Origin: Zophobihabitans entericus
Lineage (GTDB): Bacteria; Pseudomonadota; Gammaproteobacteria; Enterobacterales; Orbaceae
Assembly (NCBI RefSeq): GCF_011745665.1
Contig: NZ_CP050253.1
Coordinates: 2,207,418 to 2,271,417, forward strand
Direction: 5' to 3'
Length of the DNA stretch: 64,000 nucleotides
Positions 28,101 to 62,929 of the stretch are shown here, one piece after another (the stretch's first letter is position 1; the number at the start of each line of letters is the position of its first letter). A model generated the notes under the pieces. The model ran no database searches and had not been told where the DNA came from. It saw only the letters and a program-made list of their open reading frames with translations. A program made the position numbers and the translations under genes.

Positions 28101-29762
28101 TTATTGTCTCTCATAGGTTCTCAAGAACTCTGCTGATTTAGCAAAATCACCCGTTAATGGTCTGTCATAATCAATTACATCAATCAGCTTTCGGTATTCG
28201 TTATACAGTTTAGACGTTGCCGGTGACATATTAAATTGACCACTTTTTTCTCTTCTTAAATCAATCGCTTGAGCTGCGTGGAACAGCTCAATACCATAGA
28301 TTTGATATAAGTTATCAACCTGATGTTGAACTTTTTGTACCACATAAGGTGCATTAGTCGCAGCATCTTCAACCTGACCTTCTACCGGCGTGGTATTAAG
28401 CATTATAGGATTAGACAGGAACATATTTTCACCTTTAAGTGCAACTAATGGGTTTTGCATTGCACCCAGTGCATGAACAGTATTTTTAGTACCAAGGAAA
28501 CGAGTTAAATGGCTAAAATATTCATCACTCAGACGAAGTGTTCTTTGTGTTGCTACGTTAGAATTTGCACCCACAGTCAGAGATAATCTTTCCAGTCCAA
28601 CTACCCAAATTAATGGATCAAAGTTAGCGGTTGGAACAATCGCGCCACCACCCTGAATCTTAAATTTCATCTCCATTGGTGACAGGCTATTCGCTTTAGG
28701 TGAAATCAAAATACCTGGATTATCATCAGAAGAATTAAATTGAATGTTCATATCTTCATTTAGTTGATCAAAGGCCTGTTGTAATACAGCAATATAATAC
28801 ACAGAATCTCTGACACTTAACGGATCTTGTAGTACACGATCATCATTGACCTGCCATAAGTAACTACCTTGCAATAGATCACGTAGTTCTGCAGAAGTAG
28901 ATACAAAGTATTTAAATGGACGAAGCTCATTAGCTTCTGCAGAGAATGGTGCAATATTACCGTTGATCGCTTCAAGCGTTAACGCATAATTCAGTTTTGA
29001 AATTTTTAATAAATGCTCAACATCAGCAAGTAGCAGGGCAGTAAGTGCTGATGAATAAGCATTGGAGCTTAAAATTGATAGCGCATCTTTACCAAAAAGT
29101 ACGACAGGTTTAATGTTTTCTGCTTTAAAAGCATCTGCTGCCGGAACAATTTTACCCTGATACCAGACGTCACCTCTTCCCATCATCGCCAGACCAACGT
29201 GACCAAGAATCGTAATATCAGCCATACCAGTTGAACCTTTAGATGGAATAACCGGTAAGACATTTTGATTAAGCATTGTTTGTAGCATTTGTACAATTGA
29301 TTCCTGAACACCACTACCGCCATGAAGCATGTTGTTCAGACGTGCAGCGAGTACTGCTCTGGTGGTTCTGATGTCTGCCGGTGCGCCTAAACCGCCACTA
29401 TGTGAGTTAATCAGTCCGATATTAAATTCTCTTGAAGCGTTAATCACTTCTTCACTTAATTTGCCTTCAGCATTAACCATTTGGTGGTCTTTATTCATCC
29501 CCACCCCAACCGTTAATCCGTAAATTTCATGGCCAGTTTCAGCGCCATTAATTAAGATTTGATGAGAAATTTTAACCCGTTCCAGTGCTTGTGGCGCGAT
29601 TTTTACTTCTTCACCGTCAGCAATTTTAACGATATCGGTATATTTGACTGAGTTTCCATCTAAAGTAATAGTGGCGGAAGCGAAGGTAGTAACGGAGAGA
29701 AGAACAGATGCAAAAACAGCTTTACAACTTGTGGCTAGGGTACTCTGATACAACTTATGCAT
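28101..29762 (-). CDS. Exported HAL/PAL-family lyase homologue without the MIO Ala-Ser-Gly
   Basis: 553-aa member of the aromatic amino acid lyase fold (PF00221). A Sec signal peptide (KAVFASVLLSVTTFASA, cleavage near residue 30) predicts a periplasmic location. The conserved active-site Tyr region is present as IYGLTVGVG (Y81). At the position where HAL/PAL enzymes have G-S-V-G-A-S-G-D, this protein reads GSTGMAD (176-182). The Ala-Ser-Gly that cyclises to the MIO electrophile is therefore missing, with a one-residue deletion. Later blocks FNSSDDNPG and NVATQRTLRLSDEYF are kept. It may be a MIO-independent eliminase (ergothionase is, from memory, a precedent) or a non-ammonia-lyase. Single gene between DUF423 and catalase. 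Confidence 0.8.
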   Translation of the reverse strand: MHKLYQSTLATSCKAVFASVLLSVTTFASATITLDGNSVKYTDIVKIADGEEVKIAPQALERVKISHQILINGAETGHEIYGLTVGVGMNKDHQMVNAEGKLSEEVINASREFNIGLINSHSGGLGAPADIRTTRAVLAARLNNMLHGGSGVQESIVQMLQTMLNQNVLPVIPSKGSTGMADITILGHVGLAMMGRGDVWYQGKIVPAADAFKAENIKPVVLFGKDALSILSSNAYSSALTALLLADVEHLLKISKLNYALTLEAINGNIAPFSAEANELRPFKYFVSTSAELRDLLQGSYLWQVNDDRVLQDPLSVRDSVYYIAVLQQAFDQLNEDMNIQFNSSDDNPGILISPKANSLSPMEMKFKIQGGGAIVPTANFDPLIWVVGLERLSLTVGANSNVATQRTLRLSDEYFSHLTRFLGTKNTVHALGAMQNPLVALKGENMFLSNPIMLNTTPVEGQVEDAATNAPYVVQKVQHQVDNLYQIYGIELFHAAQAIDLRREKSGQFNMSPATSKLYNEYRKLIDVIDYDRPLTGDFAKSAEFLRTYERQ

Positions 29763-29979
29763 AACTACTCCTGATGTTAAGTAAAAAATACTAATTCAAG
29801 TAACTGTTAATTATAAGTAAATAAAGTATACCCACAACCATGTATATAACGATGTGTGATATATGTTGTAAAAAATTATTAAATATCAATATAAAATGAC
29901 GTTCAAACAAATAAATTAACGGCAGGGATTGAGGAATTTTTGACCAGAAGTGTTAGTATTTAGTCAAGATATTTACATA

Positions 29980-30009
29980 AAAAATGACCGGTTTTACCCG
30001 GTCATTTTA
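29980..30009 (-). terminator. Terminator after catalase gene
   Basis: AAAATGACCGG/CCGGTCATTTT type stem (AAAATGACCGGG-loop complement) placed just beyond the katA stop, with A/T runs on both sides. Confidence 0.8.
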
Positions 30010-32121: not shown

Positions 32122-32351
32122 TTCCTCGTTTTTATTTTGTGTCTTACTGACACGATTCATTAGTTTATTTGCGTGAATTTATCATCGTGTTGAATATTTC
32201 ATTTTGCACGCTGTGATGAGTAGTTGTTTGCGTTAAATAGCTAAAGATCTACCAGAAGTTCTCTATAAACATTTGTTTTATTAACAATACTGTCCGCCTG
32301 TCTTCTTGACGACCGGGGTATCTAATTAATTATTAATTGGAGGTATTGATT
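32122..32351 (+). promoter_or_regulatory. tnaC-tnaA transcribed spacer (attenuation region)
   Basis: 230-bp untranslated spacer between the leader peptide stop and tnaA. In E. coli this stretch holds the rut site and Rho-dependent pause/termination sites controlled by TnaC stalling. No strong intrinsic terminator is visible, consistent with Rho. Ribosome site GGAGG precedes tnaA. Confidence 0.6.
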
Positions 32352-33743
32352 ATGGCCATTAAGTATTTTCCTGAACCGTTCCGTATTAAATCTGTTGAAC
32401 CTTTACGCATGCTAACCCGCGCTGAGCGTGAACAAAAAATCAAAGAAGCAAACTATAATTTATTCTATTTGAAAGGTGAGGATTGCTATATCGATCTGTT
32501 AACAGATTCTGGTACTAATGCCATGAGCCAGGAGCAGTGGGCAGGGGTTATGAAAGGTGATGAAGCCTATGCTGGTGCATCAAGTTATTACAAATTAGTG
32601 GAGGCGGGCAGAGATATTTTTAATTATGAATATATTCAGCCGGTACATCAGGGTAGAGCGGGGGAGAAAGTGCTTTTTCCTCTCTTTTTATCCAAGGGCA
32701 AAGTAGCTATATCCAATATGTTCTTTGATACAACACGAGCTCATGTTGAACTCGCTGGCGCCAGAGCTATTGACTGTGTCATCGAAGATGCTAAAGATCC
32801 GGCTAAACGCGTTAAATTTAAAGGGAATATGGATGTTGCTAAACTGGAAGCCTTAATTAAAGAACACGGTGCTGAAAATGTGGGACTGGTCGTTATGACT
32901 GTCACAAATAACTCAGCAGGTGGGCAGCCGGTTTCCATTAAAAATATCCGCGAATCCGCAGCGGTGTGTAAAAAGTATCATATTCCATTCCATATTGATG
33001 CAGCTCGTTATGCTGAAAACGCTTTCTTTATCAAACGTGATGAAGAAGAGTTCAAAAATACTTCAATTAAAGACATCATCCGTGAAACATTCAAATATGC
33101 AGAAACCTTTACTATGTCAGCCAAAAAGGATGCCATTGTTAATATGGGGGGCCTGATTGGTGTAAAAGATGGTAATTCTGATTTAGTGCTAAAAATTAAA
33201 GCTAACTGTATCTCCTTTGAAGGATTCTTTACTTATGGTGGACTGGCCGGGCGTGATTTAGAAGCGCTGGCTATTGGTCTATATGAAGGTATTGATGAAA
33301 GTTATTTACAATATCGTAATGGTCAAATGGAATATCTTGCTTCACGCCTTGATGATGCCGGTATTGCTTATCAGGCACCAATTGGTGGTCATGGTGCATT
33401 TATTGATGCTAAAGCGATGTTCCCAAATATTCCATATTATGAATTCCCGGGACAGGTGCTGGCAATAGAACTTTATAAAGAAGCAGGTATACGTACCTGT
33501 GATATTGGTTCTTATATGCTGGGAAATGATCCTGATACCAAAAAACAGCTAAAAGCAGATTTTGAGTTTACGCGTTTAGCAATTCCACGCCGTGTCTACA
33601 CTCAGGCTCATATTGATATCATGGCTGATGCCTTGATAGAGATTAAACAAAATGCACATAAAATTACATCCGGCTATAAAATTACCTGGGAGCCACCTAT
33701 CTTAAGACACTTCCAGGCACATTTAGAACCTGTGAAAAAATAA
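32352..33743 (+). CDS. tnaA: Tryptophanase
   Basis: 463-aa PLP enzyme of the tryptophanase/tyrosine phenol-lyase family. It splits L-tryptophan into indole, pyruvate and ammonia. Visible motifs: [27 protein letters not shown], and MSAKKD with the PLP lysine at about residue 259. Start ATG 32352 chosen because GGAGG lies 9 nt upstream; an in-frame ATG 15 bp earlier overlaps that site. Sequence is nearer the Proteus-type tryptophanase than E. coli. A TnaC leader and a Trp permease gene around it favour tryptophanase over tyrosine phenol-lyase. Confidence 0.92.
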
Positions 33744-33931
33744 CATTTAACTACGATACATAAATATATTAAGCAGTAGATCATTTGTAAAATATCAGCA
33801 AATGATCTACTGAGAGGATATCTGTATCTGTTTTTCTGGCATAAAATAAATTTAAACGTGATTGTATCTTATTAATTAATAAAAGATATTTTCATAAAGT
33901 TATTATAAACATGATATTGTCAGGAGAAGTT

Positions 33932-35185
33932 ATGTCTAATTCATCTCCACAGCGTTATCACTCTTCCAAAGGTTCTCTGTTTGGTGGAGCAATGATTATC
34001 GGCGCAACTGTCGTTGGTGCCGGAATGTTTTCATTACCTATTGTGATGGCTGGCTCCTGGATATTTTGGGGTGGCCTGGTTTTAGTGTTAACCTGGTTTT
34101 GCATGTTAACGTCAGGAGCAATGCTTTTAGAGGCTAATCTACATTATCCTGTAGGATCCAGTTTTAATACGGTAGTTAAAGATTTGTTAGGTAATAAATG
34201 GAACGCATTAAATGGCTTTACTGTTGCATTTGTACTTTATATTTTGACCTACGCGTACATTTCGGCAAGTGGTTCTGTATTAAGTTTAACCGCGATTGAT
34301 AAATTTGGTATACAAATTCCAGCCAGAATTACCGGGACTCTTTTTGCTCTGGTATTTGGCTTTTTTGTATGGGTAAGTACAGCTGCTGTCACACGTGTTG
34401 CGGCTTTTGTTTTAGGTGTCAAAATTCTTACTTTCTTTTTAACGTTTGGAAATTTACTTGGACAAGTCGATCCTTTTATTTTACTTAATGTTAATGAGGT
34501 TGATGCAAGCTATTTTCCTTATGTACTTATGATATTTCCTTTCTGTTTAGCTTCTTTTGGTTTCCACGGTAATGTCCCAAGTTTAATGATTTATTACGGT
34601 AAAGAACCAAGGAGGATTTTTAAGGCATTACTTTTTGGTTCACTGATTGCGCTGGTGCTTTACGTAATCTGGTTAATTTGTGCGATGGGAAATATACCAA
34701 GACCTGATTTTAAACCTATTATCGCTGGCGGTGGAAATATTGATACTTTGGTTTCAGCTTTAGGCGGAGTGAGTGAGAAAGGATGGGTACAGATTGTGTT
34801 ACTGGTATTTTCTAACTTTGCTGTTGCCAGCTCATTTTTGGGTGTCACGCTTGGGTTATTTGATTATATGGCTGATTTGTTTAAATTTGATAATAGTCCG
34901 ATTGGTCGTCTTAAGACTGCTTTGGTCACTTTTATTCCACCTGTTTTAGGCGGGCTGATTTATCCTAATGGTTTCTTATATGCGATTGGATTTGCTGGAC
35001 TGGCTGCAACGATATGGGCTGTTATTGTTCCTGCTTTATTAGCACAAGAATCCAGAAGGCGCTTTACTGTCTCGACATTTAAAGTCTGGGGTGGAAAGGT
35101 CATGATATATATTGTGCTGCTGTTTGGCATTATTAATATTTTGGCCTTTGTATTATCAAGTCTGGATTTACTACCGGTGTATTAG
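33932..35185 (+). CDS. tnaB: Aromatic amino acid permease (TnaB/Mtr type)
   Basis: 417-aa inner-membrane transporter of the HAAAP family with 11 TM helices. The N-terminus [20 protein letters not shown] is the family signature, and [16 protein letters not shown] lies in the centre. It imports tryptophan for TnaA. The start is ATG 33932 with AGGAG 5 nt upstream; a start 21 bp earlier has no ribosome site. It follows tnaA by 188 bp, as in the E. coli tna operon. Confidence 0.9.
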
Positions 35186-50520: not shown

Positions 50521-52194
50521 ATGAAAATAGCAAAGTTATTAACCTTTGCTGCGTTATTTCCCGTGGCGGCGTTTGCTGTTGAGACGTCATGGAGTGATCA
50601 GCAACTTATTAATCAACAAGAACGACAAAAAGCATTAGAAGAACGCCTTAATGTAAGTGCACCTGATATTAGTTTATTACCTAATATTCCTACATCTCAG
50701 ATTATCAGCTTTCCGGAGGAGTCACCTTGTTTTCAAATTGATCAGGTGATTTTAGAAAAGCGTGATGAGCTGCCGTGGTGGATAACACTCAATAAATTGG
50801 CCAGACAGGCAGAAGGGCATTGTTTAGGTTCTCAGGGGATTAATATCCTTATGACCGAGTTACAAAATAAGCTTGTCGGTCATGGTTATATTACCACTCG
50901 CGTTGTTGCTCCGCCTCAGGATCTCACTCAGGGTCAACTCATTTTAACACTGGTCAAAGGTGTGACTCGCTACGTGTATTACACGCAAGAAAGTGATCCT
51001 TATGCCAAACTGTCCACTGCGATGCCAGTGACAGAAGGGGAAATTTTAGACCTGCGTGATATTGAACAAGGTCTGGAAAATTTACAGCGTTTACCAACCG
51101 TGCGGGCTGAAATGCAACTGATTCCGGGTGATGAACCGGGTGAAACTGATATTGTTATTCACCGTGAACAGTCACGTTTTTGGCGTGTTGGTGCTTCTCT
51201 GGATGATTCAGGGACAAGAGCAACCGGGCGTTATCAGGGCGGACTGACTTTCTATTTAGATAACCCTTTCCAGTTAAGTGATTCTTTTTATGTCTCGGGC
51301 GGGCGAGATATTGATGGTGAAAGGGATCGCTACGGATCATATAACTATCTTTTCCATTATTCTGTACCATTTGGCTACTGGCAATTTAGCACTTCACTGA
51401 GTGGTAATAAATATTATCAAACAGTTGCGGGTATTCCGGTTAATTATGAATATAGCGGTCGTAGCCGTAATGCCAGTTTCCAGTTAAGTCGAGTCTTACA
51501 TCGTGACGAAGCGCAAAAGACTACGTTAACTTATGGTATTAATCTTCGCCAGTCACATAACTATATTAATGATGAAGAAATAGAGATTCAAAAACGTAAA
51601 ACCACCAGCTGGCAGCTAGGTCTGCAACATCGCCATTATATTGGTAATAATACTCTTAATTTAGGTGTGAGTTATCAGCAAGGAGTACGTTGGTTTGCTG
51701 CGCACAAAGCACCGGAAGAGTACATCGATAATGGTACGGCACTTTCACAAATATTTCGTTATAACTTAGGCCTTTCTGTCCCATTTAATCTCTCTGAGGC
51801 TAATTTTCGTTACAACTTAGATATTCAAGGGCAACATACCAGACGTGGTATGTTAACTGCACAGGAGCGTTTTTCAATCGGTGGGCGCTGGAGTGTGCGT
51901 GGATTTGACGGTGAACTTTCTTTATCAGCAGATCGTGGTATTTCTGTCCGTAATGAACTTTCATGGATCTTACCTGAAAATCAGGAACTTTATTTAGGCA
52001 TTGATTATGGGCAGGTTTATGGGAATGCATCGGAATATTTACTTGGAAGACATTTAAGTGGTGCAGCTTTAGGCCTGCGTGGTTCATATTGGGGATTCTA
52101 TTATGATGCCTTTGTCGGGACACCAATTTATAAGCCCGATCTGTTTAAAGCAGATGATGCAACCTTTGGCTTTAATATTAACTGGAGCTACTAA
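50521..52194 (+). CDS. cdiB: CdiB/ShlB-type two-partner secretion transporter
   Basis: 557-aa outer-membrane Omp85-family protein that exports CdiA. Signal peptide ends near residue 19 (PVAAFAV), with the N-terminal plug helix in QQLINQQERQKALEERL. Two POTRA domains run about 65-215 (SPCFQIDQVIL, GHGYITTRVVAPPQDLTQGQ). The 16-strand barrel has the conserved VRGF motif (SVRGFDGELSLS, about 459) and ends NINWSY. Only 2 bp separate its stop from the HlyC-like gene, so they are one operon. Confidence 0.93.
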   Translation: MKIAKLLTFAALFPVAAFAVETSWSDQQLINQQERQKALEERLNVSAPDISLLPNIPTSQIISFPEESPCFQIDQVILEKRDELPWWITLNKLARQAEGHCLGSQGINILMTELQNKLVGHGYITTRVVAPPQDLTQGQLILTLVKGVTRYVYYTQESDPYAKLSTAMPVTEGEILDLRDIEQGLENLQRLPTVRAEMQLIPGDEPGETDIVIHREQSRFWRVGASLDDSGTRATGRYQGGLTFYLDNPFQLSDSFYVSGGRDIDGERDRYGSYNYLFHYSVPFGYWQFSTSLSGNKYYQTVAGIPVNYEYSGRSRNASFQLSRVLHRDEAQKTTLTYGINLRQSHNYINDEEIEIQKRKTTSWQLGLQHRHYIGNNTLNLGVSYQQGVRWFAAHKAPEEYIDNGTALSQIFRYNLGLSVPFNLSEANFRYNLDIQGQHTRRGMLTAQERFSIGGRWSVRGFDGELSLSADRGISVRNELSWILPENQELYLGIDYGQVYGNASEYLLGRHLSGAALGLRGSYWGFYYDAFVGTPIYKPDLFKADDATFGFNINWSY

Positions 52195-52196
52195 CG

Positions 52197-52712
52197 ATGT
52201 CTGAATATCAGGTTATTGCACCACTGTTTTTTAACTCTAAACATAGTGAAGCCGAATGTTTAGGTATTGCTACCTGGCTATGGATGCATTCTGAGAATCA
52301 TAAATATACACCAATTTATGCTTTACCTACTCTAATTTTACCGGCCATTAAAAGACAACAGTTTATTCTGATCATAAAAGATAATAAACCTGTTTGTTAT
52401 ATGAGCTGGGCCAATATGAGTGAAGAGACAGAACAGAAGTATTTACAGGATAAGAGTGCGTTATCGTTAACTGAGTCTGATTGGTATAGCGGTACGCGTA
52501 TGTGGGCTATTGACTGGATTTCTCCTTTTGGTGAAACGCAAAAACTGGCTTCATTCGTTCTTAAAGACATTTTACCTGATTTTTGTTTCAGAGCGCTTTC
52601 TCATCAAGGGAAAAAGAGAGGCTTTCAGATAAAATTTTTCAAAGGTAAACATGTCTCTAAAGTTCAGGCACAACAGTGGCAAATAAATAATCCACTAATA
52701 ATTAATAACTAA
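52197..52712 (+). CDS. cdiC: HlyC-like lysine acyltransferase of the CDI operon (CdiC type)
   Basis: 171-aa toxin-activating acyltransferase. Family motif LGIATWLWMHSENHK supplies the catalytic His35; LPTLILPAIKRQQFILII and SWANMSEETEQKYL follow. RMWAIDWISPFG supplies the catalytic Asp106, so both catalytic residues are intact. Placed between cdiB (2 bp) and cdiA (39 bp). From memory, some enterobacterial CDI operons carry such a cdiC whose product lipidates CdiA to allow delivery; that role is inferred here. No RTX toxin gene is present. Confidence 0.88.
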   Translation: MSEYQVIAPLFFNSKHSEAECLGIATWLWMHSENHKYTPIYALPTLILPAIKRQQFILIIKDNKPVCYMSWANMSEETEQKYLQDKSALSLTESDWYSGTRMWAIDWISPFGETQKLASFVLKDILPDFCFRALSHQGKKRGFQIKFFKGKHVSKVQAQQWQINNPLIINN

Positions 52713-52751
52713 AACAATGACAATTTTAGCAAGGAATAAAAGGAAGTAAGG

Positions 52752-55700
52752 ATGAATAAACATTTTTATCGTGTGGTTTTTAATCGCGCTCGCGGTATGT
52801 TAATGGTGGTGTCTGAACTGGTGCGTAGCCACAGTGGTGAATCACGCAGTAGCCAAAAAGCAGAGGCAACAGAAGGTAAAACGCTGGTAGCTAAACTGAC
52901 ATCAATTAGTTTTTTAACTTATTTATCCTTAGGACTCCTGACTGTTACCTTACCGGCACAGGCGACAACGATTCGCGTTGACCCAAACGCGGATAAAACT
53001 CAGCGCCCAACCGTGATTGAAAGTGCCAATGGTACAACACAAATCAATATTCAGACTCCAAACAGTAATGGCTTATCCCATAACCGCTATACTCAGTTTG
53101 ATGTGTCAGACAAAGGGGTTATTTTAAATAACTCCAATAACTCATCAAATACTCAGCTGGGTGGCTGGATTAAGGGGAATGAGTTCTTAGGTGCCACAGG
53201 TGGCGCTAAAATTATCTTAAATGAAGTTAATACTAAAAATCCAAGTCAGATAGCCGGCTATATTGAAGTGGCAGGTCAGCGCGCTCAGGTCATTATTGCC
53301 AATGCAGCAGGAATTACCTGTAATGGCTGTGGATTTATTAACGCCAGTCGCGGCACCCTGACAACCGGTAAACCGATTATTGAAAACGGCCAACTTAAAG
53401 GTTATGAAGTGAGTCAAGGTCATATTGCCATTGAAGGTAAAGGGCTGGATAGCACGCGTCAGGATTATACCGACCTGATAGCCAGAACAGTGTCAATTAA
53501 CTCCAGTATTCATGCCAATAACTTAAATGTCGTCACCGGACGTAACAGAGTGAGTGCTGATGCCCAGCAAGTCACTAAACTGGCTGATGATGGTTCAGCC
53601 GTGCCTGTTGTAGCACTGGACGTGTCTGCACTTGGCGGTATGTATGCTGGTAAGATTCAGATGATAGGGACAGAAGGTGGTGTTGGTGTCCGTAATGCCG
53701 GCAGCATTGGGGCCAGTGCGGGTAGTGTCACGATTTCTGCTGACGGACGAATTGAGAATAACGCCAAAATTTATGCCTCAGAAAATATAAATATTCAAAA
53801 TAATCAAAGCACTATAAATAACGGTGAAATATCATCACAAAAGGGCTCAACCACAATTAATACCAAAGGTGAGCTGGTTAATAATGACAAGATTATTAGC
53901 CAGAATCAGCTGACGGTTACGGCTAAAGGAAATATTACCAATACAGGTTCAATGGGAACTATTGAGGGTAAAGCTGATATAAATAGTCAGGCAAATATTA
54001 TCAATAGTGGAGAGCTATCATCTGAAAAAGGTGATCTGGTTATTCATGCCAATAATAACCTGACAAATACCGGTAAAATTTTTGCGGATAATAAAGCTCA
54101 AATCAATGCCGGTAATGAACTGAATAATCAGGGAACAGGGTCGATTGTTGCTGATCATATTCGTCTGCAAGCCATAACGATTAATAATGTGGCTAAAGAC
54201 GATATTGCACCAGCTATTGCAGCACGCGCGCAGTTAGATATAGCAGCGCATACCATTAATAACGTCGGACATGCACTTATCTATAGTGATGGTGACATCA
54301 ATATTGGTGGTCAGTTAGCGGATGAAAGTGGTGTGACTGGTCAGGCAGAAGAACTGAATAATCACAGCAGTAATATTGAAGCTGCTGATAATATCCAGTT
54401 ATCAGTAAACAAAATTAATAATATCAATGACCATTTTGAAGTTGAAATTCAGGAAGTATCCAGAGAAAACATTATTGAATATCAACATGAAGGCTCTTAT
54501 AAACGTTACTCACCAAGTGAAGTCTATTTCACACATGGTGAAGTAGACTATATGTGTATAAGAAGTACAGGTTCATGTAACGATTACTTCTATAAATATG
54601 TTTATGAACGAGTGATTGAAGAGACCGTTATCACTCAAACAGATCCGGCAAAAATTATTGCAGGTAAAGATATTACCATCAAGGCAGATCACCTGTTAAA
54701 TGATAAGAGCCAAATTATTGCGGGTAATACGCTGACTATTAATGCGAATTCGATTGAGAATATTGAAGTTCCTGGACAGCGTTATATTAAAGATAACGGA
54801 ACGGCTATTTATTACTACCGAATCCACGAAAAAGGCTCGGACAGTCAGGGTACCAGTTACTCAACCTACCGACCGACAAAAGTTGAAGATATCACGTTGA
54901 GACCTTCTGAATTAAAGTCTGAAACGATCGTCAGTGAAAGCGGTAAAGATCGTCATGATAATGTGATTTCATTAGATAATCCAGAGGTGACTTTACCGCC
55001 ACCAAATAGTTTATTTCAGGTTAATCCGGATCCTCAAGGTAAATATCTGATTGAAACAGATTCACGCTTTACTAATCGTAGCGAGTGGCTGGGCAGTGAT
55101 TATATGCTGACGCTACTGAAACAAGATCCAGATAATATTCAAAAGCGCTTGGGTGATGGCTACTATGAGCAAAAACTGGTTCGTGAACAAATTATTGAAC
55201 TAACTGGGCAACGTTATCTGGGCGATTACACCTCTGACTTAGAACAATATAAAGCCTTAATGGATGCGGGTGTTGAGTTTGCTCAGGAACATAATCTCAG
55301 TATTGGTATTGCACTAACAGCAGAACAAATGAAGGCGCTTACCTCAGATATTGTCTGGATGGTCAGTAAAACGGTCACCTTAGCAGACGGGAGTCAGCAA
55401 CAAGTACTTGTGCCTCAGGTTTATGCCGTTGTGAAACAAGGTGATTTAAATGGTAGTGGCGCACTCCTTGCCGGACGCGATATTGATTTGAGTGTCAGTG
55501 GTGATATCAATAATCAGGGACGTATTATTGCCGGTAACGAGATTAATATTACTGCTGAGAATATTAGCAATGGTAAAGGCGGTAATATTCAGGGCAGTGA
55601 CATCTCTTTAACTGCACAGCAGGATATTAATAATATTGGTGGCCACATTAGTGCTAATGAAAGCTTAAGCTTAACGGCTGGCCGTGATATTACGATTAGC

Positions 55701-58700
55701 TCAACCATTAATAAAACTGAAGTAAGAGATGGTGATAACTCCTTTGTACAGAATACTATAGGTAGTGTTGGCTCGTTGTCTGTCAATAATGATGGTGGAC
55801 AGATGTCAATTAACGCTGGCCGTGATGTAAATCTTAATGCTGCGCAAATCACCGCTAATGGCCAGGAAAGTCAGATTGCCATTGAAGCTGGCAATAACGT
55901 CAATCTTGGTGTTGTTGAAACCACAACCGGGCAAGCAGTCTATTTTGATAGCGACAATTACACCAAACAAACCATTACCACAGAAGTCGGTAGCGCCATT
56001 TTAGGTAATGGTGATATTTCCATTAAATCTGGTAACGACGTTGCGATTAAAGGTGCACAAATCAGTGCGCAAGACACACTAGACATTCAGGCTAAAAATG
56101 ATCTGACGATTGAAGAAGCTCGTCAGCATATTGTTTATGAAGATCACACTAAAACAGAAGATCATAGCGGTGGTGGAACTTCACAAACGATCAATATGCA
56201 CACTGAGCTTGATCATAATTTAGCACTGGGTAGTCAGCTAAGTGGTGGAGAGGTTAACCTGTCCGCGGGTCGCGATATGCTGGTACAAGGCAGTCAGGTA
56301 GTGAGTGAAACAGCAACCAACCTTGACGCCGGACGTGACATTACGATTACTGCAGCGGAGGAGCGTTTCACTGATAATCACTTTGAAAGTAAAGAAAAGT
56401 CTGGCTTTATGAGCGGTGGCGGACTTGGTTTTACTTATGGCACATTCAAAGAGTCTACAGATCAAAATGAAGTCGAAAAAAGCTATCTTGGCAGTATGCT
56501 AGGTAGTACAGAAGGTAGTGTAAATATCAATGCTGGCCGTGATGTTGCAGTACGTGGTAGTGAAATTATCGCTAAAGAAGATATTGCTGTAAATGCGGAA
56601 AATATCACTATTGAGTCACTGGACGCGACAACGCGTTATCAGGAACAGTATGAGATGGAAAAAACCGGGATTACGGTTGCGATCACAGGAACTGCATCTG
56701 ATGTTTATAATGCGGGCCAAGCCGCACGCAATGCGCATGATCGTGGTAACTCAACCATTTCTGCTTTGAATGATATTAAAGCGGGACTGACCACCATTAA
56801 TGCCGGACTTGATGTGGCTATGTCAGCACAAGAGAATAATCCACAAGGAAATGGTGCATCAATTGGTGTGAGTGCTTCAGTTGGTACTGAGCGTACAGAG
56901 CGTACTATAAATGAAGAAAGCCACAACGTAGTCGGTTCTGGTCTGTCAGCAGGTAATAATATTACCTTAAATGCCAGAGGTAATGAGGCTGGAGAAGGCG
57001 GTGATATTCTTATTAAAGGCAGTGAAGTCAGAGCGGGCAATGATATTAATCTGAGTGCTGCTAATGATGTTAATGTCATTGGTGATGTCAATACCCAGCA
57101 CCGCGACATGGACGAGAAGAGTAGCAGTGCGAGCATTGGTGTGGGTGTTAGTGTAGGAGCTAATACCGGCTGGACTATCAGCGGCAATGCCAACTTTAGC
57201 CGTGAACGTGAAAACATGGACGGTTCAGCCTGGACAGAAAGTGTCATTGATGCGGGTAATAATCTCAATATTACGACCGGTCGTGATATGAATATCATTG
57301 GTGGTATTGTTAAAGGCGATACTGTCACCGCAGATATTGGTAATAACCTGAATATTGCCTCACTGCAAGACACCGATAACTACGATTACGATAAAATCAG
57401 TGGCTCCATCAGCGGGAGCTTTGGACCAAGTTCTGGTGCTGGCGGAAACATCAGCCTGTCCCAAACCGAGATGGAAAGTAACTGGTCAAGTGTCACAGAC
57501 CAGTCGGGTATTTATGCAGGTAGCGGTGGGTTTGATATCCGGGTAGAGAACAATACCGACCTGAAAGGTGCGGTGATTGCCTCAGAAGCCAAAGATAAGA
57601 GTGATAACGTCTTAGATACTGGTACTATTAGTTTTAGCGATATCGAAAATAAAGCGGATTATAACGTTGACCATGTCTCGGTCAATATTGGGACTAATGG
57701 CGGGCTTATCCCATCGGCAGGCGCACCGACAACCTATGAAAACAGTGACAGCGCCTCCAGCACCACTCACTCAGCGGTCGAAGAAGGCACTTTAATTGTC
57801 CGTGATGAAGATAAACAAAAACAGGATGTGAACGAGTTAAGTCGCGATACTGAAAATGCCAATAACTCGCTGGGACAAATCTTTGATAAACAGAAAGAGC
57901 AGGACAGAATGGATACGCTTGATCTGTTGAATGATATTGCCGCACTCGCTAAAGATAGTCTGAATAAAGTGGATATGAATACCGCTTTATCGGATTACAA
58001 TAATTTATCTGAGGATGAAAAAAGTCAGATAAAATTTGATGAATATTATAAAAATCGTCAGGAGAATGGTGAAACAGTCGGCGGAATGGGCAGCAGTGCC
58101 AATAAAGCGATTGATTCGGTTATCTCTATAGTAACGGGTTTAATTACCGGTGATGTGACTGGAGGACTGGCTGGAGCCAGTGCACCGTGGTTGGCTGAGC
58201 AGATTAAGAAAGCAACCACCACTTATGGTTCTGATGGTAAGCCTGTTGTGGATATGGAAGCGAATTTACTTGCTCACACCATACTGGGCGCTGTTGTTGC
58301 TGAGTTACAAGGCAATTCAGGCTTAGCAGGTGGTGCCGGAGCCCTGACCGGGGAGGCAGCCGCAGCTCTGATCATTAAAGAGTTATATGGTAACAGAGAT
58401 GTTTCAGATTTAAGTGAAGCTGAAAAACAAAATATTAGCTCATTAGCTCAACTGGCAGCAGGTTTAGCTGCGGCAGCGGGAAGTGGTGGTGATGTAGGGG
58501 ATATTGGTACAGCTGTTGCTGGAAGTAAAAATGCGGTGGAAAATAATAAGCTTTCACCTACGCAAAAATCAGAATTAGAAAAAGAAATTGCTGCTTGTGG
58601 TAGTGATTGGACATGTAACTTAAAAACTCAATTGAAATGGGCAAATATCAATCTACAACAAGACAATGCGTATGTTGATGGTCTAATTGTGGGATGGGGA

Positions 58701-59465
58701 GTGTCAGGGCCTATAGAATTAGCGGGAGCAGGATTAGCGGATATACTGGGTACATTTTCAACAAATCCAGCTGATTTAGCGAATAAAGATATAGAGCTGG
58801 GAAGTAACTTCTGGACTGTCATTGGTGCTATTGGTGATAAAGCAGAAACAATTAAAGACGGCTATATTAATTCAGAAGGCTATGAGTCTAACTTTAATGC
58901 AGGACAAGAGGCTGGAGAAGCCGGATTTAATGTTAAAATTTTATTAGATGGTGGTCGGTATATACTTGCCAATACCTCCAATAAAACAGCTGTAGTGGTA
59001 GATAGTACAGCTGGAACGACGAAAGTTATTGAAGGGGCAGGAAGTAGTGCTGGTACCAGTTCAGGTACAGGAAATGTAATCAACAAAGTTGAGAATATCA
59101 CTTCTGATGTAGGAAAGGGGAATACAGGAAATAAGGCCGTTAACTCAATAGAAACACAGGTAAGTGTTGATAAGAAATTGACTACATACTTACTGGATAA
59201 AGACCATCCAGTAGGAGGAAGTAAAGCTGAGTGGTTTGATAAAGCACTTGGTTTTAACCAATCTAATTCAGGACAATTATCTAAACAGATTGTATTTGAT
59301 ACTAATACAGCAGTTCAAACTGGAGTAACAGAATTTGGTACTAAGTATAATCAAGTAATTAAAATTACTGGAGCAAACGGAAAACAAATCGATGTTAATT
59401 TTGGTTGGATAAAAAATAATGATGGGGTGGTAAGATTAGTTACTGCAATTCCAACCAAAAAATAA
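52752..59465 (+). CDS. cdiA: CdiA contact-dependent inhibition effector with DUF6883-like toxin
   Basis: 2237-aa two-partner secretion effector. Residues 1-28 are an extended signal peptide region (MNKHFYRVVFNRARGMLMVV), with cleavage near 71 (PAQA). The TPS domain spans about 72-330 (NAAGITCNGCGFINASRG), then filamentous haemagglutinin repeats and a receptor-binding-like region with cysteines near 610. A second repeat block follows, then a pretoxin domain ending in VENN (1929-1932). The 305-residue variable C-terminus has a Gly/Ser-rich linker and ends in about 100 residues (LTTYLLDKDHPVGGSKAEWF, FGTKYNQVIKITG, WIKNNDGVVRLVTAIP) resembling DUF6883, a domain seen in polymorphic toxins. Target unknown. 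Ribosome site AAGGAAGTAAGG. Confidence 0.93.
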   Translation: MNKHFYRVVFNRARGMLMVVSELVRSHSGESRSSQKAEATEGKTLVAKLTSISFLTYLSLGLLTVTLPAQATTIRVDPNADKTQRPTVIESANGTTQINIQTPNSNGLSHNRYTQFDVSDKGVILNNSNNSSNTQLGGWIKGNEFLGATGGAKIILNEVNTKNPSQIAGYIEVAGQRAQVIIANAAGITCNGCGFINASRGTLTTGKPIIENGQLKGYEVSQGHIAIEGKGLDSTRQDYTDLIARTVSINSSIHANNLNVVTGRNRVSADAQQVTKLADDGSAVPVVALDVSALGGMYAGKIQMIGTEGGVGVRNAGSIGASAGSVTISADGRIENNAKIYASENINIQNNQSTINNGEISSQKGSTTINTKGELVNNDKIISQNQLTVTAKGNITNTGSMGTIEGKADINSQANIINSGELSSEKGDLVIHANNNLTNTGKIFADNKAQINAGNELNNQGTGSIVADHIRLQAITINNVAKDDIAPAIAARAQLDIAAHTINNVGHALIYSDGDINIGGQLADESGVTGQAEELNNHSSNIEAADNIQLSVNKINNINDHFEVEIQEVSRENIIEYQHEGSYKRYSPSEVYFTHGEVDYMCIRSTGSCNDYFYKYVYERVIEETVITQTDPAKIIAGKDITIKADHLLNDKSQIIAGNTLTINANSIENIEVPGQRYIKDNGTAIYYYRIHEKGSDSQGTSYSTYRPTKVEDITLRPSELKSETIVSESGKDRHDNVISLDNPEVTLPPPNSLFQVNPDPQGKYLIETDSRFTNRSEWLGSDYMLTLLKQDPDNIQKRLGDGYYEQKLVREQIIELTGQRYLGDYTSDLEQYKALMDAGVEFAQEHNLSIGIALTAEQMKALTSDIVWMVSKTVTLADGSQQQVLVPQVYAVVKQGDLNGSGALLAGRDIDLSVSGDINNQGRIIAGNEINITAENISNGKGGNIQGSDISLTAQQDINNIGGHISANESLSLTAGRDITISSTINKTEVRDGDNSFVQNTIGSVGSLSVNNDGGQMSINAGRDVNLNAAQITANGQESQIAIEAGNNVNLGVVETTTGQAVYFDSDNYTKQTITTEVGSAILGNGDISIKSGNDVAIKGAQISAQDTLDIQAKNDLTIEEARQHIVYEDHTKTEDHSGGGTSQTINMHTELDHNLALGSQLSGGEVNLSAGRDMLVQGSQVVSETATNLDAGRDITITAAEERFTDNHFESKEKSGFMSGGGLGFTYGTFKESTDQNEVEKSYLGSMLGSTEGSVNINAGRDVAVRGSEIIAKEDIAVNAENITIESLDATTRYQEQYEMEKTGITVAITGTASDVYNAGQAARNAHDRGNSTISALNDIKAGLTTINAGLDVAMSAQENNPQGNGASIGVSASVGTERTERTINEESHNVVGSGLSAGNNITLNARGNEAGEGGDILIKGSEVRAGNDINLSAANDVNVIGDVNTQHRDMDEKSSSASIGVGVSVGANTGWTISGNANFSRERENMDGSAWTESVIDAGNNLNITTGRDMNIIGGIVKGDTVTADIGNNLNIASLQDTDNYDYDKISGSISGSFGPSSGAGGNISLSQTEMESNWSSVTDQSGIYAGSGGFDIRVENNTDLKGAVIASEAKDKSDNVLDTGTISFSDIENKADYNVDHVSVNIGTNGGLIPSAGAPTTYENSDSASSTTHSAVEEGTLIVRDEDKQKQDVNELSRDTENANNSLGQIFDKQKEQDRMDTLDLLNDIAALAKDSLNKVDMNTALSDYNNLSEDEKSQIKFDEYYKNRQENGETVGGMGSSANKAIDSVISIVTGLITGDVTGGLAGASAPWLAEQIKKATTTYGSDGKPVVDMEANLLAHTILGAVVAELQGNSGLAGGAGALTGEAAAALIIKELYGNRDVSDLSEAEKQNISSLAQLAAGLAAAAGSGGDVGDIGTAVAGSKNAVENNKLSPTQKSELEKEIAACGSDWTCNLKTQLKWANINLQQDNAYVDGLIVGWGVSGPIELAGAGLADILGTFSTNPADLANKDIELGSNFWTVIGAIGDKAETIKDGYINSEGYESNFNAGQEAGEAGFNVKILLDGGRYILANTSNKTAVVVDSTAGTTKVIEGAGSSAGTSSGTGNVINKVENITSDVGKGNTGNKAVNSIETQVSVDKKLTTYLLDKDHPVGGSKAEWFDKALGFNQSNSGQLSKQIVFDTNTAVQTGVTEFGTKYNQVIKITGANGKQIDVNFGWIKNNDGVVRLVTAIPTKK
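57573..58547 (+). repeat. 3' cdiA segment duplicated in the orphan module
   Basis: 975 bp ending at the VENN codons, repeated at 61355-62320 in the same orientation. The last 450 bp are nearly identical; earlier parts differ by scattered substitutions and a 9-bp length difference. Forms a recombination target for toxin exchange. Confidence 0.9.
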
Positions 59466-59487
59466 CTTAATTTAGGATATGATTATT

Positions 59488-59709
59488 ATGATTCAAGAAA
59501 ACGATGTAGTTATTGCTAAAAAAGATTTATCAAAAATAGTTCTCAAAGGAAGTAAGGGGGCTGTTGTGATGGTATATAAAGAACCAAGATTAGGTTATGA
59601 AGTTGAATTTGTTAATAATCATGGTGAGACGTTGGATGTTATAACAGTTTACCCTGAAGATATTGAAGAACTACCTATAACTTCACCCAGAGGTAGAGAG
59701 AAAGGATAA
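59488..59709 (+). CDS. cdiI: Probable cognate immunity protein CdiI (DUF4926-like)
   Basis: 73-aa soluble protein. NDVVIAKKDLSKIVLKGSKG, YEVEFVNNHGETLDVITV and the final DIEEL match my memory of the DUF4926 pattern, a small beta-barrel family often found next to DUF6883 proteins. It starts 22 bp after the cdiA stop; I prefer ATG 59488 (AGGA about 10 nt upstream) over ATG 59479, which sits too close. By position it should neutralise the CdiA toxin domain. Confidence 0.8.
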   Translation: MIQENDVVIAKKDLSKIVLKGSKGAVVMVYKEPRLGYEVEFVNNHGETLDVITVYPEDIEELPITSPRGREKG

Positions 59710-59749
59710 CCAGTAATAATATTATAGGGAGTTATTACAATATGGATAA

Positions 59750-59827
59750 AAAGTATTTGAGCCAACAACTAATTTTATAATCCATTATTCAAAAACAGGG
59801 GTACATATAGTACCGGCGAGACCATAA
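59750..59827 (+). pseudogene. Remnant of a displaced toxin C-terminus
   Basis: A 25-codon frame without a start codon encodes KVFEPTTNFIIHYSKTGVHI then VPARP and a stop, 3 bp before the next immunity-type gene. The tail resembles C-termini of polymorphic nuclease toxins (Ntox50 or EndoU-like; family uncertain). Its place exactly where a toxin should end before an immunity gene supports a truncated CdiA-CT. Confidence 0.6.
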
Positions 59828-59830
59828 ATT

Positions 59831-60163
59831 ATGTATGCAGGTAAAACAAAAGAAGAACAAGTAAAAGTAGAAAATAGAATTAATCTATACACGATGTACG
59901 GTTTGATCGATCGAGCGTCTAAAAAGATGCGCGGAGTAACCGCAAGTATAGCTGGTCAAGATCTAACAATTGAAATGTTTTTTGATAGTGAGTTAACTGA
60001 GGAGGAAGAGGAGGAAATGGAATGTGCTCATACAGATGTTGTTTCCGATTTATATCAAGAGTTTGTCGGAATATATTTGAAGCTTACAGTTATTCCATCT
60101 TCCACACCGATATATGATCAAAGAGGTACTCTAGGCTGGATTTATCTGCGTAAAGAGTATTAA
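59831..60163 (+). CDS. Orphan immunity-type protein
   Basis: 110-aa acidic soluble protein. IDRASKKMRGVTASIAGQDL, IEMFFDSELTEEEEEEMECA and the C-terminal GTLGWIYLRKEY resemble a widespread immunity/colicin-immunity-like family (pattern of R-A-V-T, F-Y-F-D-x-E-x-[ST]-E-E, and R-K-E end) whose number I cannot name. Intact, while only the last codons of a toxin remain directly upstream, so it is likely an orphan cdiI that still protects against siblings carrying the lost toxin. Confidence 0.7.
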   Translation: MYAGKTKEEQVKVENRINLYTMYGLIDRASKKMRGVTASIAGQDLTIEMFFDSELTEEEEEEMECAHTDVVSDLYQEFVGIYLKLTVIPSSTPIYDQRGTLGWIYLRKEY

Positions 60164-60173
60164 TTAAAAATAT

Positions 60174-60204
60174 AGATTCCAGCCTTATAAGCTGGGATCT
60201 TTTT
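60174..60204 (+). terminator. Terminator after orphan immunity gene
   Basis: GATTCCAGC/GCTGGGATC stem with CTTATAA loop followed by TTTTT. Confidence 0.85.
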
Positions 60205-60330
60205 ACAGGGAAAGGAACGACGACTGTTAACACTCCAGATGGTATAAGTTTTAATATTGAACAACCTAAACATTTAGCAACTGTCGATGGGTTTACTCAA
60301 TCTAAAGGCATTTCAGAACCAAGTAGTTAG
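60205..60330 (+). pseudogene. Second toxin/CdiA-CT remnant
   Basis: A start-less frame reads TGKGTTTVNTPDGISFNIEQ, PKHLATVDGFTQSKGIS and stops after EPSS at 60330. PxGxxxxxxxPxHLxTVxGxxxxxGIS looks like the entry of a CdiA-CT toxin fold cut before its catalytic part. Family assignment is uncertain. Confidence 0.45.
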
Positions 60331-60375
60331 TGATGGAGCGAAGGAATAAAAAATATGGAGCAAGGGAATTAGATT

Positions 60376-60948
60376 ATGAATAAAAATTGCATGTTATATT
60401 TCTTTTTTCTTTTCTTTACCTTACTTATTCGAAGTTTAATAGCATTATTTGGCGCATATATATTTACTTTTTTTGTTTTAGATTTAATTAATTATATAAA
60501 TGTTGATTGGAATAAATTATTCATTTTATTTCCATTAAAAAAGTTGATTGGCGGAAGCTTCGTTATGGGAATAACTGCTTGGTTATGGAGTATTCATAAA
60601 TATAGAAAGTCCATAACAAGAGGGAAAGAAAGTTTAGAGATTTTATCTCAACATGGTTATAAGGCTGAAATTAATGATATATCTCCATTAATTACTATCC
60701 CATTTTACCAAATAAATGGAGAGCTTTTTCATAATCATTATCCATTAACTGCAAGAGATGTTAGTTTTGCTTTAGGGGGATTGAAAAAAATTATAAAAAA
60801 GAGCGAGATAAAAAATATCGTAATAAATTTAGTGGATGCTTCAGTTGATATTAATAAATTAAAGAAACAATTATTAAATAAGTATTCAGATAAATTAGAT
60901 AAAATCTTGATCATAGATAAGTCAGGCAATGTTATTTCTCTGAAGTAA
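60376..60948 (+). CDS. Two-TM membrane protein, immunity candidate (paralogue A)
   Basis: 190-aa protein: two N-terminal TM helices (about 8-40 and 55-75, LIGGSFVMGITAWLWSI), then a cytoplasmic domain with NDISPLITIPFYQINGELFH and ending IDKSGNVISLK. It is a clear paralogue of the 185-aa protein at 62939, which directly follows an orphan toxin module, so both are probably membrane immunity proteins against pore-forming or ionophoric CdiA-CT toxins. No toxin gene precedes this copy. Ribosome site AGGGA. Confidence 0.7.
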   Translation: MNKNCMLYFFFLFFTLLIRSLIALFGAYIFTFFVLDLINYINVDWNKLFILFPLKKLIGGSFVMGITAWLWSIHKYRKSITRGKESLEILSQHGYKAEINDISPLITIPFYQINGELFHNHYPLTARDVSFALGGLKKIIKKSEIKNIVINLVDASVDINKLKKQLLNKYSDKLDKILIIDKSGNVISLK

Positions 60949-61027
60949 TTATTATAAGTTTTGCCTATTAATTGTGGTACACGATAATTGAGCAATAGTG
61001 GAGTTAGGGCGAGATTGGGTAAAATCA

Positions 61028-61279
61028 ATGAGAGGAAATAAAAAATATATTAATTTATTATGTTCATTAGTATTTTGGATTTTTATTGGTATTTTCACTA
61101 TATTTATATCTTGCCTTATAGGATTATTTGTTTTAGAAAAAATCCATTATGTTACTGCTGATTGGAAGGTTTTTCTTGATTTAACTATACTCAAAAAAAT
61201 TATTATAGGTGGTGGATTAATTGGGATTGCAGCTTGGTGGGTCAAAACTTTTGGCTCTGAGAGTAAAAAGAAAAAATAA
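61028..61279 (+). CDS. Short two-TM protein, N-terminal-only relative of paralogue A
   Basis: 83-aa protein from ATG 61028 (MRGNKKYIN); an upstream in-frame GTG at 60998 is possible. Its two helices and the linker (CLIGLFVLEKIHYVTADWKV, IIIGGGLIGIAAWW) align with the first half of the proteins at 60376 and 62939, but it ends in SESKKKK without the soluble domain. Either a natural short immunity form or a truncated relic. Terminator follows. Confidence 0.6.
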   Translation: MRGNKKYINLLCSLVFWIFIGIFTIFISCLIGLFVLEKIHYVTADWKVFLDLTILKKIIIGGGLIGIAAWWVKTFGSESKKKK

Positions 61280-61292
61280 TCTCATAGAATTA

Positions 61293-61324
61293 GAAAAATC
61301 CCGGTTTAAAACTGGGATTTTTTA
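61293..61324 (+). terminator. Terminator before the orphan cdiA-CT module
   Basis: AAAATCCCGG/CTGGGATTTT stem with TTTAAAA loop and following T-run. It would isolate the orphan module from upstream transcription. Confidence 0.85.
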
Positions 61325-61354
61325 TATCTGAATAAAATGTAACATTGACATGGA

Positions 61355-62929
61355 GTGATTGCCTCAGAAGCCGAAGACAAATCGAATAATATCTTAGATA
61401 CCGGCACCATCAGTTTTAGTAATATCGAAAACAAAGCCGATTATGAAGTCACGCATGATTCCATTTCTGTCGGTACCGGTGGTTTTGGTGCAGGTGCACC
61501 GACAACCTATGAAAACAGTGACAGCGCCTCCAGCACCACTCACTCAGCGGTCGAAGAAGGCACTTTAATTGTCCGTGATGAAGACAAACAAAAACAGGAT
61601 GTGAACGAGTTAAGTCGCGATACAGACAATGCCAATAACTCGCTGGAACAAATCTTTGATAAACAGAAAGAGCTGGACAGAATGGAGACGCTGGAACTGG
61701 TCAAAGACATTGGTGCGATGGCAAAAGAGAGTCTGAGTAAGGTAGATATGGCCAGTGCATTATCTGATTACAATCAATTATCGGATGATGAAAAAGAGAG
61801 TATCAACTTTGATGATTACTATAAAAACCGGCAGAAAGAGGGTGAAACAATTGGCGGAATGGGCAGCAGTGCCAATAAAGCGATTGATTCGGTTATCTCT
61901 ATAGTAACGGGTTTAATTACGGGTGATGTGACTGGAGGACTGGCAGGAGCCAGTGCACCGTGGCTGGCGGAGCAGATTAAGAAAGCAACCACCACTTATG
62001 GTTCTGATGGTAAGCCTGTTGTGGATATGGAAGCGAATTTACTTGCTCACACCATACTGGGCGCTGTTGTTGCAGAGTTACAAGGCAACTCAGGCTTAGC
62101 GGGTGGTGCCGGAGCCCTGACCGGGGAGGCAGCCGCAGCTCTGATTATTAAAGAGTTATATGGTAACAGAGATGTTTCAGATTTAAGTGAAGCTGAAAAG
62201 CAGAATATCAGCTCATTAGCACAACTGGCAGCAGGTTTAGCTGCGGCAGCGGGTAGTGGTGGTGATGTGGGGGATATTGGTACCGCTGTTGCTGGGAGTA
62301 AGAATGCGACGGAGAATAATTTTCTTGATAAAATAGTACATCCTTCTACCGCCGACAATCTAGGTTCATATGTTCATAACGTACCCGCAATAGAATATAA
62401 ATACATAGATAAAAATGGCATTGAACAAGCAGACATTTATATTCCATTAAATAATGAAGATACCATAAAAGGATTAAATGATGCTATAAAAGGTACAGGA
62501 ATGCAAAATGGAAGTGATTATGCTTTAAAATGGGGAACTGAAACTCCGGTGATTGCAGCAACTTCTCTGGTTAGTGGTCCAGGAGGTACATATTTAGTTG
62601 CTACAGTTGTTGGTGGTGTAACTAATATTGTATATCAAATATCAACTAAACCATTAGATAAATTTGATATTACTGATACAGTTATCTCAACAGCTGTTTC
62701 TGCTCTATCAAAAGGAAAGGGTATTTGGGTTTCTACTGGAGTCGGTGGACTTGGTGGTTATGTGAATAGTTCCATAAAGGGTGATAATACAGTTTCAGGA
62801 ACATTGAGTGGCGCAGCAAGTTCGGCTGGAGGCAAAGTTATAGGAGATATAACTGGACCAGTTGGAGGTGCAATCACTTCTGAATTTATTAATAATCAAA
62901 TACAAGAAGCTCTCAGCCAATATGAATAA
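61355..62929 (+). CDS. Orphan CdiA C-terminal toxin module (Gly-rich, possible ionophore)
   Basis: 524-codon frame lacking signal peptide, TPS and repeats. Codons 1-322 repeat CdiA 1608-1932 and end in TENN (319-322) in place of VENN. The 202-residue C-terminus then differs completely. It contains an entry-like section (IVHPSTADNLGSYVHNVP) and hydrophobic Gly/Ala-rich stretches (TYLVATVVGGVTNIVYQ, GTLSGAASSAGGKVIG, GPVGGAITSEFINNQIQ), as in membrane-active toxins. The first codon is a GTG with no clear ribosome site, so it is probably silent until recombined into cdiA. A membrane immunity candidate follows 9 bp later. Confidence 0.85.
   Translation: MIASEAEDKSNNILDTGTISFSNIENKADYEVTHDSISVGTGGFGAGAPTTYENSDSASSTTHSAVEEGTLIVRDEDKQKQDVNELSRDTDNANNSLEQIFDKQKELDRMETLELVKDIGAMAKESLSKVDMASALSDYNQLSDDEKESINFDDYYKNRQKEGETIGGMGSSANKAIDSVISIVTGLITGDVTGGLAGASAPWLAEQIKKATTTYGSDGKPVVDMEANLLAHTILGAVVAELQGNSGLAGGAGALTGEAAAALIIKELYGNRDVSDLSEAEKQNISSLAQLAAGLAAAAGSGGDVGDIGTAVAGSKNATENNFLDKIVHPSTADNLGSYVHNVPAIEYKYIDKNGIEQADIYIPLNNEDTIKGLNDAIKGTGMQNGSDYALKWGTETPVIAATSLVSGPGGTYLVATVVGGVTNIVYQISTKPLDKFDITDTVISTAVSALSKGKGIWVSTGVGGLGGYVNSSIKGDNTVSGTLSGAASSAGGKVIGDITGPVGGAITSEFINNQIQEALSQYE

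Follow-up and report, generated by a model that had tools for sequence, protein, structure and literature searches.

A predicted exported, MIO-less lyase of the ergothionase family in Zophobihabitans entericus and its possible activity on hercynine

The lyase gene and its surroundings

The window, i.e. the whole stretch of 64,000 nucleotides of the Zophobihabitans entericus genome that was analysed, carries an uninterrupted open reading frame of 553 codons, and the encoded protein (the window lyase) belongs to the HAL/PAL fold family (Table 1). Pfam family PF00221 covers residues 41–525 (E=2.7e-114; 382.8 bits vs. a gathering score of 27.3), and the AF2 model (pLDDT 89.7), which is confident from about residue 31, matches HAL folds. 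Furthermore, the protein retains 88 of the 98 columns conserved in its family. The neighbouring genes encode a catalase and a DUF423 protein. A terminator-like hairpin, read by eye and not among the items listed by a pattern scan for terminators, sets the upstream catalase gene apart and speaks against an operon with it; since the lyase gene also has a ribosome-binding site of its own, it is probably a single transcription unit. Its GC and GC3 values are ordinary for the window, so that recent foreign DNA is ruled out as far as composition is concerned.

Close to the lyase gene, on the opposite strand (32337–35185), a gene for a beta-eliminating lyase (tyrosine phenol-lyase or tryptophanase type) precedes those for a Trp/Tyr permease and a RidA-like protein. 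Farther along (50521–62929), the window contains a two-partner secretion locus with a CdiB-like ShlB protein, an HlyC-family acyltransferase, and a 2237-aa haemagglutinin-repeat protein with a pre-toxin VENN motif, followed by CdiA_C/VENN fragments. This is a contact-dependent inhibition locus with orphan modules.

Table 1. Features of the lyase gene and its upstream region, with window coordinates.
Feature	Position	Strand	Basis or remark
MIO-less HAL/PAL-fold lyase, predicted exported, 553 aa	28101..29762	minus	ATG at 29762, stop codon included at 28101; PF00221 and 6S7J fold match
Predicted Sec signal peptide, residues 1–30, A-x-A site ...TTFASA before TITL	29673..29762	minus	Sequence pattern; absent from enzymes of known structure
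GSTGMADI, residues 176–183, in place of the MIO triad, one residue deleted	29214..29237	minus	Alignment; Met180 where ergothionase-type relatives have Glu
Asn437	28452..28454	minus	6S7J and canonical relatives have Lys, UrdA-paired lyases Asn/Asp
Glu461	28380..28382	minus	Canonical set has Ala, UrdA-paired lyases Gln/Glu; covaries most strongly with 437
Ribosome-binding site AGGAG	29768..29772	minus	5 nt before the lyase ATG; read from the sequence
Terminator-like hairpin AAAATGACCGG-GTAAAA-CCGGTCATTTT, T-rich end	29979..30008	minus	Between upstream catalase and lyase; read by eye

Loss of the MIO triad and family membership

Ammonia is a poor leaving group, which is why MIO is needed in HAL chemistry, and ammonia elimination in the HAL/PAL fold, as established for HAL and PAL, depends on it. 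MIO enzymes share the motif GSxGASGD, whereas the window lyase reads IPSKGSTGMA-DITILGHVG in this region. In the alignment with P. putida HAL, Met-Ala stands for the Ala-Ser-Gly triad of MIO-dependent ammonia-lyases and aminomutases, with one residue fewer. The gap is not an alignment accident, as the Treponema denticola ergothionase (SSIGEG-DIT) and every full-length relative tabulated have the identical one-residue deletion. The window lyase thus combines the HAL fold with a deleted MIO triad, as ergothionase does, and MIO-based ammonia elimination should be impossible for it. Together with a score of 261.9 bits for the HutH model TIGR01225, which does not reach the cut-off of 539.15, the absent triad rules out an ordinary HutH or PAL.

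A first-pass annotation had already proposed the replacement of Ala-Ser-Gly by Met-Ala with a one-residue gap (GSTGMAD) and the resulting loss of MIO-based elimination. Both are borne out, the former by the alignment with HAL, ergothionase, and the relatives, and the latter by the loss of the triad as in ergothionase, a MIO-less enzyme. The implied uniqueness is not, as the deletion is the hallmark of an entire family, one member of which has been characterised as a MIO-less enzyme; MIO loss in this fold is already known and not new in itself. The same annotation had suggested a different eliminase, with a trimethylamine-type leaving group as in ergothionase, or an isomerase. The ergothionase lead was right in kind, but we found no evidence for an isomerase. 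T. denticola ergothionase, which lacks MIO (PMC13405746), is the closest solved relative in a single-sequence search (6S7J, E=1.9e-75), in a profile search (E=1.7e-146 vs. 1.5e-86 for the best HAL), and in a Foldseek fold search (top match, E=2.2e-33, TM 0.91 on the target).

Lyases of this family are rare. Scanning 84,980 species genomes yielded 80 relatives, and family members occur in one of 44 genomes of the host's own family, in 8 of 395 of its order, and in one of 399 of the phylum sample. The nearest relatives are Campylobacter proteins (51–53% identity), which form the sister group of the window lyase with SH-aLRT support of 98–99, although the terminal branch of the latter is long (0.87–1.0 vs. 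0.1–0.26 in the sister group). None of the relatives scanned matched an NCBIfam ergothionase model used as a membership test, and no NCBIfam model set these MIO-less lyases apart. Some public records annotate family members as histidine ammonia-lyase although the residues that form MIO are absent.

Predicted export

The N-terminus of the window lyase (KAVFASVLLSVTTFASA, followed by TITL) has the basic residues, hydrophobic stretch, and A-x-A site of a Sec signal peptide. It amounts to 31 additional residues, with residues 32–33 aligning to residue 3–4 of 6S7J and 7TQR; neither HAL nor 6S7J has an equivalent of this stretch, which AF2 models with low confidence. A home-made signal-peptide rule, which is simple and crude and misses some evident signal peptides among the relatives, accepts the window lyase and most Gram-negative relatives but rejects HAL and 6S7J. 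The protein is thus predicted to be exported. In this respect the signal peptide noted by the first-pass annotation agrees with the sequence pattern, the extended N-terminus, and the home-made rule, but export does not set the protein apart as implied, since most Gram-negative family members found likewise carry a signal peptide.

Gene surroundings of the relatives

The lyase genes of the relatives recur in two settings, one respiratory and one catabolic. The respiratory setting has an FAD_binding_2 reductase, usually with a Tat-like signal, and often a small cytochrome c3 and a sigma-54 activator. In Campylobacter, the lyase gene is followed by genes for the reductase (interrupted or masked in the two assemblies looked at), a multihaem cytochrome, and a NapC/NirT-family cytochrome, and the C. 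gastrosuis locus additionally encodes a two-component system. The catabolic setting comprises thiourocanate hydratase, thiohydantoin desulfurase, ErtD (hydantoin-5-propionate amidohydrolase), and ErtE (N-carbamyl-glutamate amidohydrolase), each scoring over its NCBIfam cut-off in the representative tested. The lyases of this Ert setting, which also carry signal peptides, are ergothionases by association.

Several further loci are of note. A MIO-less lyase with GQAD/Ala437, annotated as hutH, is encoded on S. meliloti pSymA (L108, 6989–11972; also L034 and L036) near a DMSP_lyase-family gene (PF16867) and a peptide-type ABC transporter, and may act on another onium compound. A fourth pocket type, GxND/Gln437, is found in Shewanella (L144–L150), accompanied by its own FAD_binding_2 reductase, and represents a further lyase/reductase pair; the loci inspected also encode a small cytochrome c3. 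In Enterococcus (L085, 3070–8542; L092), a MIO-less lyase without a signal peptide and with His436 and Val437 sits between MFS transporter, CoA-transferase, and NMO-family genes, which suggests a CoA-dependent fate of the acrylate. The insect-derived Paraburkholderia sp. PGU19 (L107, 3896–10437) has a lyase with Lys437 and Glu436 beside a canonical urocanate hydratase, an ornithine-cyclodeaminase-family gene, and an MFS transporter; it is an exception showing that a simple code based on position 437 is incomplete. Finally, a record labelled Bacillus subtilis SK6B4 (L089, 5971–7650) contains a locus nearly identical to that of Pseudochrobactrum, and this assembly is probably contaminated or mislabelled.

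Pocket positions and reductase partners

The window lyase retains the HAL binding residues, with Y81, H121, R318, and E465 corresponding to HAL Tyr53, His83, Arg283, and Glu414. Its departures from the ergothionases are K437N, A461E, and E180M, the last at the MIO position. Relative to HAL, residue 437 lies one helical turn away from the position of Met382, residue 461 precedes that of Glu414 by four residues, and residue 180 falls at the MIO place; hence, all three plausibly line the substrate pocket. Reportedly, the structural work on ergothionase identified four essential catalytic residues.

In the canonical set (n = 37 lyases), position 437 is always Lys and position 461 always Ala, as in 6S7J. 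This combination, also found in the Ert clusters, is absent from the window lyase, which instead has the Asn/Asp437 and Gln/Glu461 of the proposed UrdA-paired type. Three lineages change both positions together: Shewanella type II (GLSD/N437/Q461), Sutterellaceae (GDAD/D437/E461), and the window lyase (GMAD/N437/E461). The Asn437 and Glu461 of the latter correspond to different UrdA-paired lineages, in which Asn goes with Gln and Asp with Glu, and its Met180 matches neither exactly. We found no closer relative with the Met180/Asn437/Glu461 set among the 84,980 species genomes, the 44 family, 395 order, and 399 phylum genomes, and plasmids. By mutual information, position 437 is coupled most strongly to positions 461, 422, and 180, based on approximately 37 effective sequences and with values that shared ancestry can inflate.

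In the relatives, the changes at 437 and 461 go along with a different reductase. The lyases of Shewanella type II and Sutterellaceae adjoin a reductase scoring 628–1293 bits against the S. chilikensis UrdA, which itself matches UrdA 6T85 with E=1.8e-261. The UrdA site residues (E177, F243, F245, Y373, D388, R390, F391, R411, H520, and R560) are kept in these reductases, with one E177Q exception. In contrast, reductases beside Lys437 lyases reach only ~200–280 bits and are without Y373 and D388. UrdA is known to act on urocanate, not fumarate, with D388 being critical (PMC7921117). Overall, UrdA adjoins the Asn/Asp437 and Gln/Glu461 lyases in 10 of 10 loci, representing only two independent origins, vs. 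none of the ~50 Lys437/Ala461 loci with a full reductase, a redundant set mostly from Shewanella and Ferrimonas; lyases with Lys437 and Ala461 adjoin non-UrdA reductases or thiourocanate-catabolism genes. Both kinds of pair co-occur in the genomes of S. chilikensis (L022/L024), Parasutterella (L037/L083), and Turicimonas (L069/L075), and on one contig of Sutterella seckii (L080), where the second lyase is cut by the contig end. According to a tree built without the trait columns, the 437/461 change arose three times, and as two of these origins can be paired with a reductase, a sign test cannot reach significance.

Proposed activity and alternatives

The protein is very probably an exported, MIO-less betaine lyase. 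After Sec export, it would fold as a HAL-type homotetramer, as expected from the family, and act on an aromatic alpha-amino acid with a pre-existing trimethylammonium group, a leaving group that would need no electrophilic activation by MIO. By analogy to established HAL work, Tyr81 on a flexible loop would take the beta-proton, Arg318 would hold the carboxylate, and His121 and Glu465 the imidazole, with trimethylamine leaving to yield an acrylate. The C2 sulfur of ergothioneine probably interacts with Lys437 in members of the ergothionase type, and Asn/Asp437 and Gln/Glu461 may serve an unthiolated imidazole. As relatives with the latter residues adjoin a urocanate reductase, hercynine (histidine betaine) is a better guess than ergothioneine, and its conversion would release urocanate and trimethylamine outside the cytoplasm. 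Still, the partnership with UrdA tells which acrylate is made, and not whether a betaine or another histidine derivative is its source. We assign hercynine, or a different unthiolated imidazole betaine, only tentatively as substrate, at somewhat short of an even chance. The full reading, a MIO-independent trimethylammonium-betaine lyase of the ergothionase family that is exported and has hercynine as its most likely substrate, comes close to being evenly balanced. To our knowledge, hercynine trimethylamine-lyase activity has not been reported.

More broadly, the family may form "eliminate, then respire" modules, in which a periplasmic MIO-less lyase would convert a betaine into an acrylate, which a partner flavoprotein would then reduce as an electron acceptor. 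That the window lyase is an exported hercynine trimethylamine-lyase within this family of modules, with positions 180, 437, and 461 setting the betaine used, is conceivable but on balance doubtful. No UrdA-type reductase adjoins its gene, and neither a UrdA-type reductase or FMN_bind domain nor a urocanase or other Urocanase-domain protein (thiourocanate hydratase) was found in the host genome, which is ~92% complete; hence, no urocanate user was found there. The only full-length FAD_binding_2 protein is SdhA/FrdA-like. Partner genes for thiourocanate use, which are not strictly defining for an ergothionase, were likewise not found in this genome (Urocanase domain, FMN_bind, and an extra FAD_binding_2 reductase). 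A respiratory role within the host genome was rejected, as no reductase or FMN_bind protein was found there. With an exported lyase but no visible user of its product, the organism might engage in cross-feeding or take up the product by a route not recognised here, or the gene might be decaying since its partner was lost.

The main rival substrate is ergothioneine. An exported ergothionase proper would yield thiourocanate and trimethylamine, with Asn437, Glu461, and Met180 tolerated or compensated. The closest solved relative is an ergothionase, the Campylobacter relatives have Glu180/Lys437/Ala461 and a non-UrdA reductase, and other exported members are encoded in thiourocanate-catabolism clusters with scores over the NCBIfam cut-offs. 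We nevertheless consider this reading unlikely, as two residues invariant in 37 canonical relatives and 6S7J are changed here together with Glu180, and neither a thiourocanate hydratase nor a reductase was found in the host genome. The pocket could also have been remodelled again for another onium amino acid, e.g. an aromatic betaine such as hypaphorine or tyrosine betaine. This would fit a residue set seen in no other protein, and further pocket types with other partners exist (rhizobial GQAD/Ala437, Enterococcus Val437, Shewanella Gln437), but retention of the imidazole-side residues His121 and Glu465 and a 437/461 pair closest to the urocanate-linked types make it quite improbable.

Slightly less probable still is that a horizontally acquired lyase has lost its reductase partner and is drifting towards loss of function. 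An intact reading frame with signal peptide and ribosome-binding site, the conserved columns retained, and a confident predicted fold argue against such decay, and the changed sites correspond to a set of positions that covary across the family. The protein is, however, the only member among the 44 genomes of its family, it has no partner gene, and its long terminal branch could reflect relaxed selection. A true ammonia-lyase or isomerase acting on unmodified amino acids by a MIO-free route is hardly credible: only the HAL/PAL fold and the conserved HAL binding residues speak for it, whereas ammonia elimination in this fold depends on MIO, and the protein scores far below the HutH cut-off and groups with ergothionase.

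Comparison with known systems and significance

As far as the literature searched shows, what looks new is a rare and mostly exported family of MIO-less lyases, many of them encoded beside a periplasmic flavoprotein reductase, together with its reductase pairing and candidate three-position code; no publication describing a reductase-paired, exported ergothionase turned up, which is no proof that none exists. The lyase/reductase pairing predicts that ergothioneine or hercynine could be turned into trimethylamine and a respiratory electron acceptor outside the cytoplasm of gut and environmental bacteria. In Parasutterella, Turicimonas, and Shewanella, the UrdA-paired type would provide a route to urocanate, and thus to imidazole propionate, that does not start from free histidine. 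Imidazole propionate has been linked to type 2 diabetes (PMC7921117). The candidate three-position specificity code makes the substrate assignment, a prediction and not a result, directly testable.

Compared with the T. denticola ergothionase (6S7J/6S7Q; ~32% identity in the structural alignment), the window lyase shares the HAL/PAL fold, the identical deletion at the replaced MIO triad, the NKD motif (residues 90–92), Ser232, Asn234, Leu315, Arg318, and Glu465, but differs by its signal peptide and by Asn437, Glu461, and Met180, where the ergothionase has Lys, Ala, and Glu. With HutH (TIGR01225), it has in common the fold, the catalytic loop Tyr, the substrate-binding Arg, and the His and Glu equivalents; unlike HutH, it is without Ala-Ser-Gly and hence MIO, is predicted to be exported, and scores well under the HutH cut-off. 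The lyases whose partners are a Tat FAD_binding_2 reductase and cytochrome c3 (Shewanella, Ferrimonas, enterics, and Campylobacter, the sister group) are likewise exported and MIO-less, but keep Glu180/Lys437/Ala461 and a reductase neighbour, whereas the window gene stands alone. The exported lyases paired with UrdA (Shewanella type II and Sutterellaceae) resemble it in having Asn/Asp437 with Gln/Glu461, although they are only 34–42% identical to it, occupy separate branches of the tree, and have a partner that was not found in the genome of the window. Finally, the Ert ergothioneine-utilisation clusters contain an exported MIO-less lyase of the same family; their urocanase-type gene was not found in this genome, and the pocket residues of their lyases differ from those of the window lyase.
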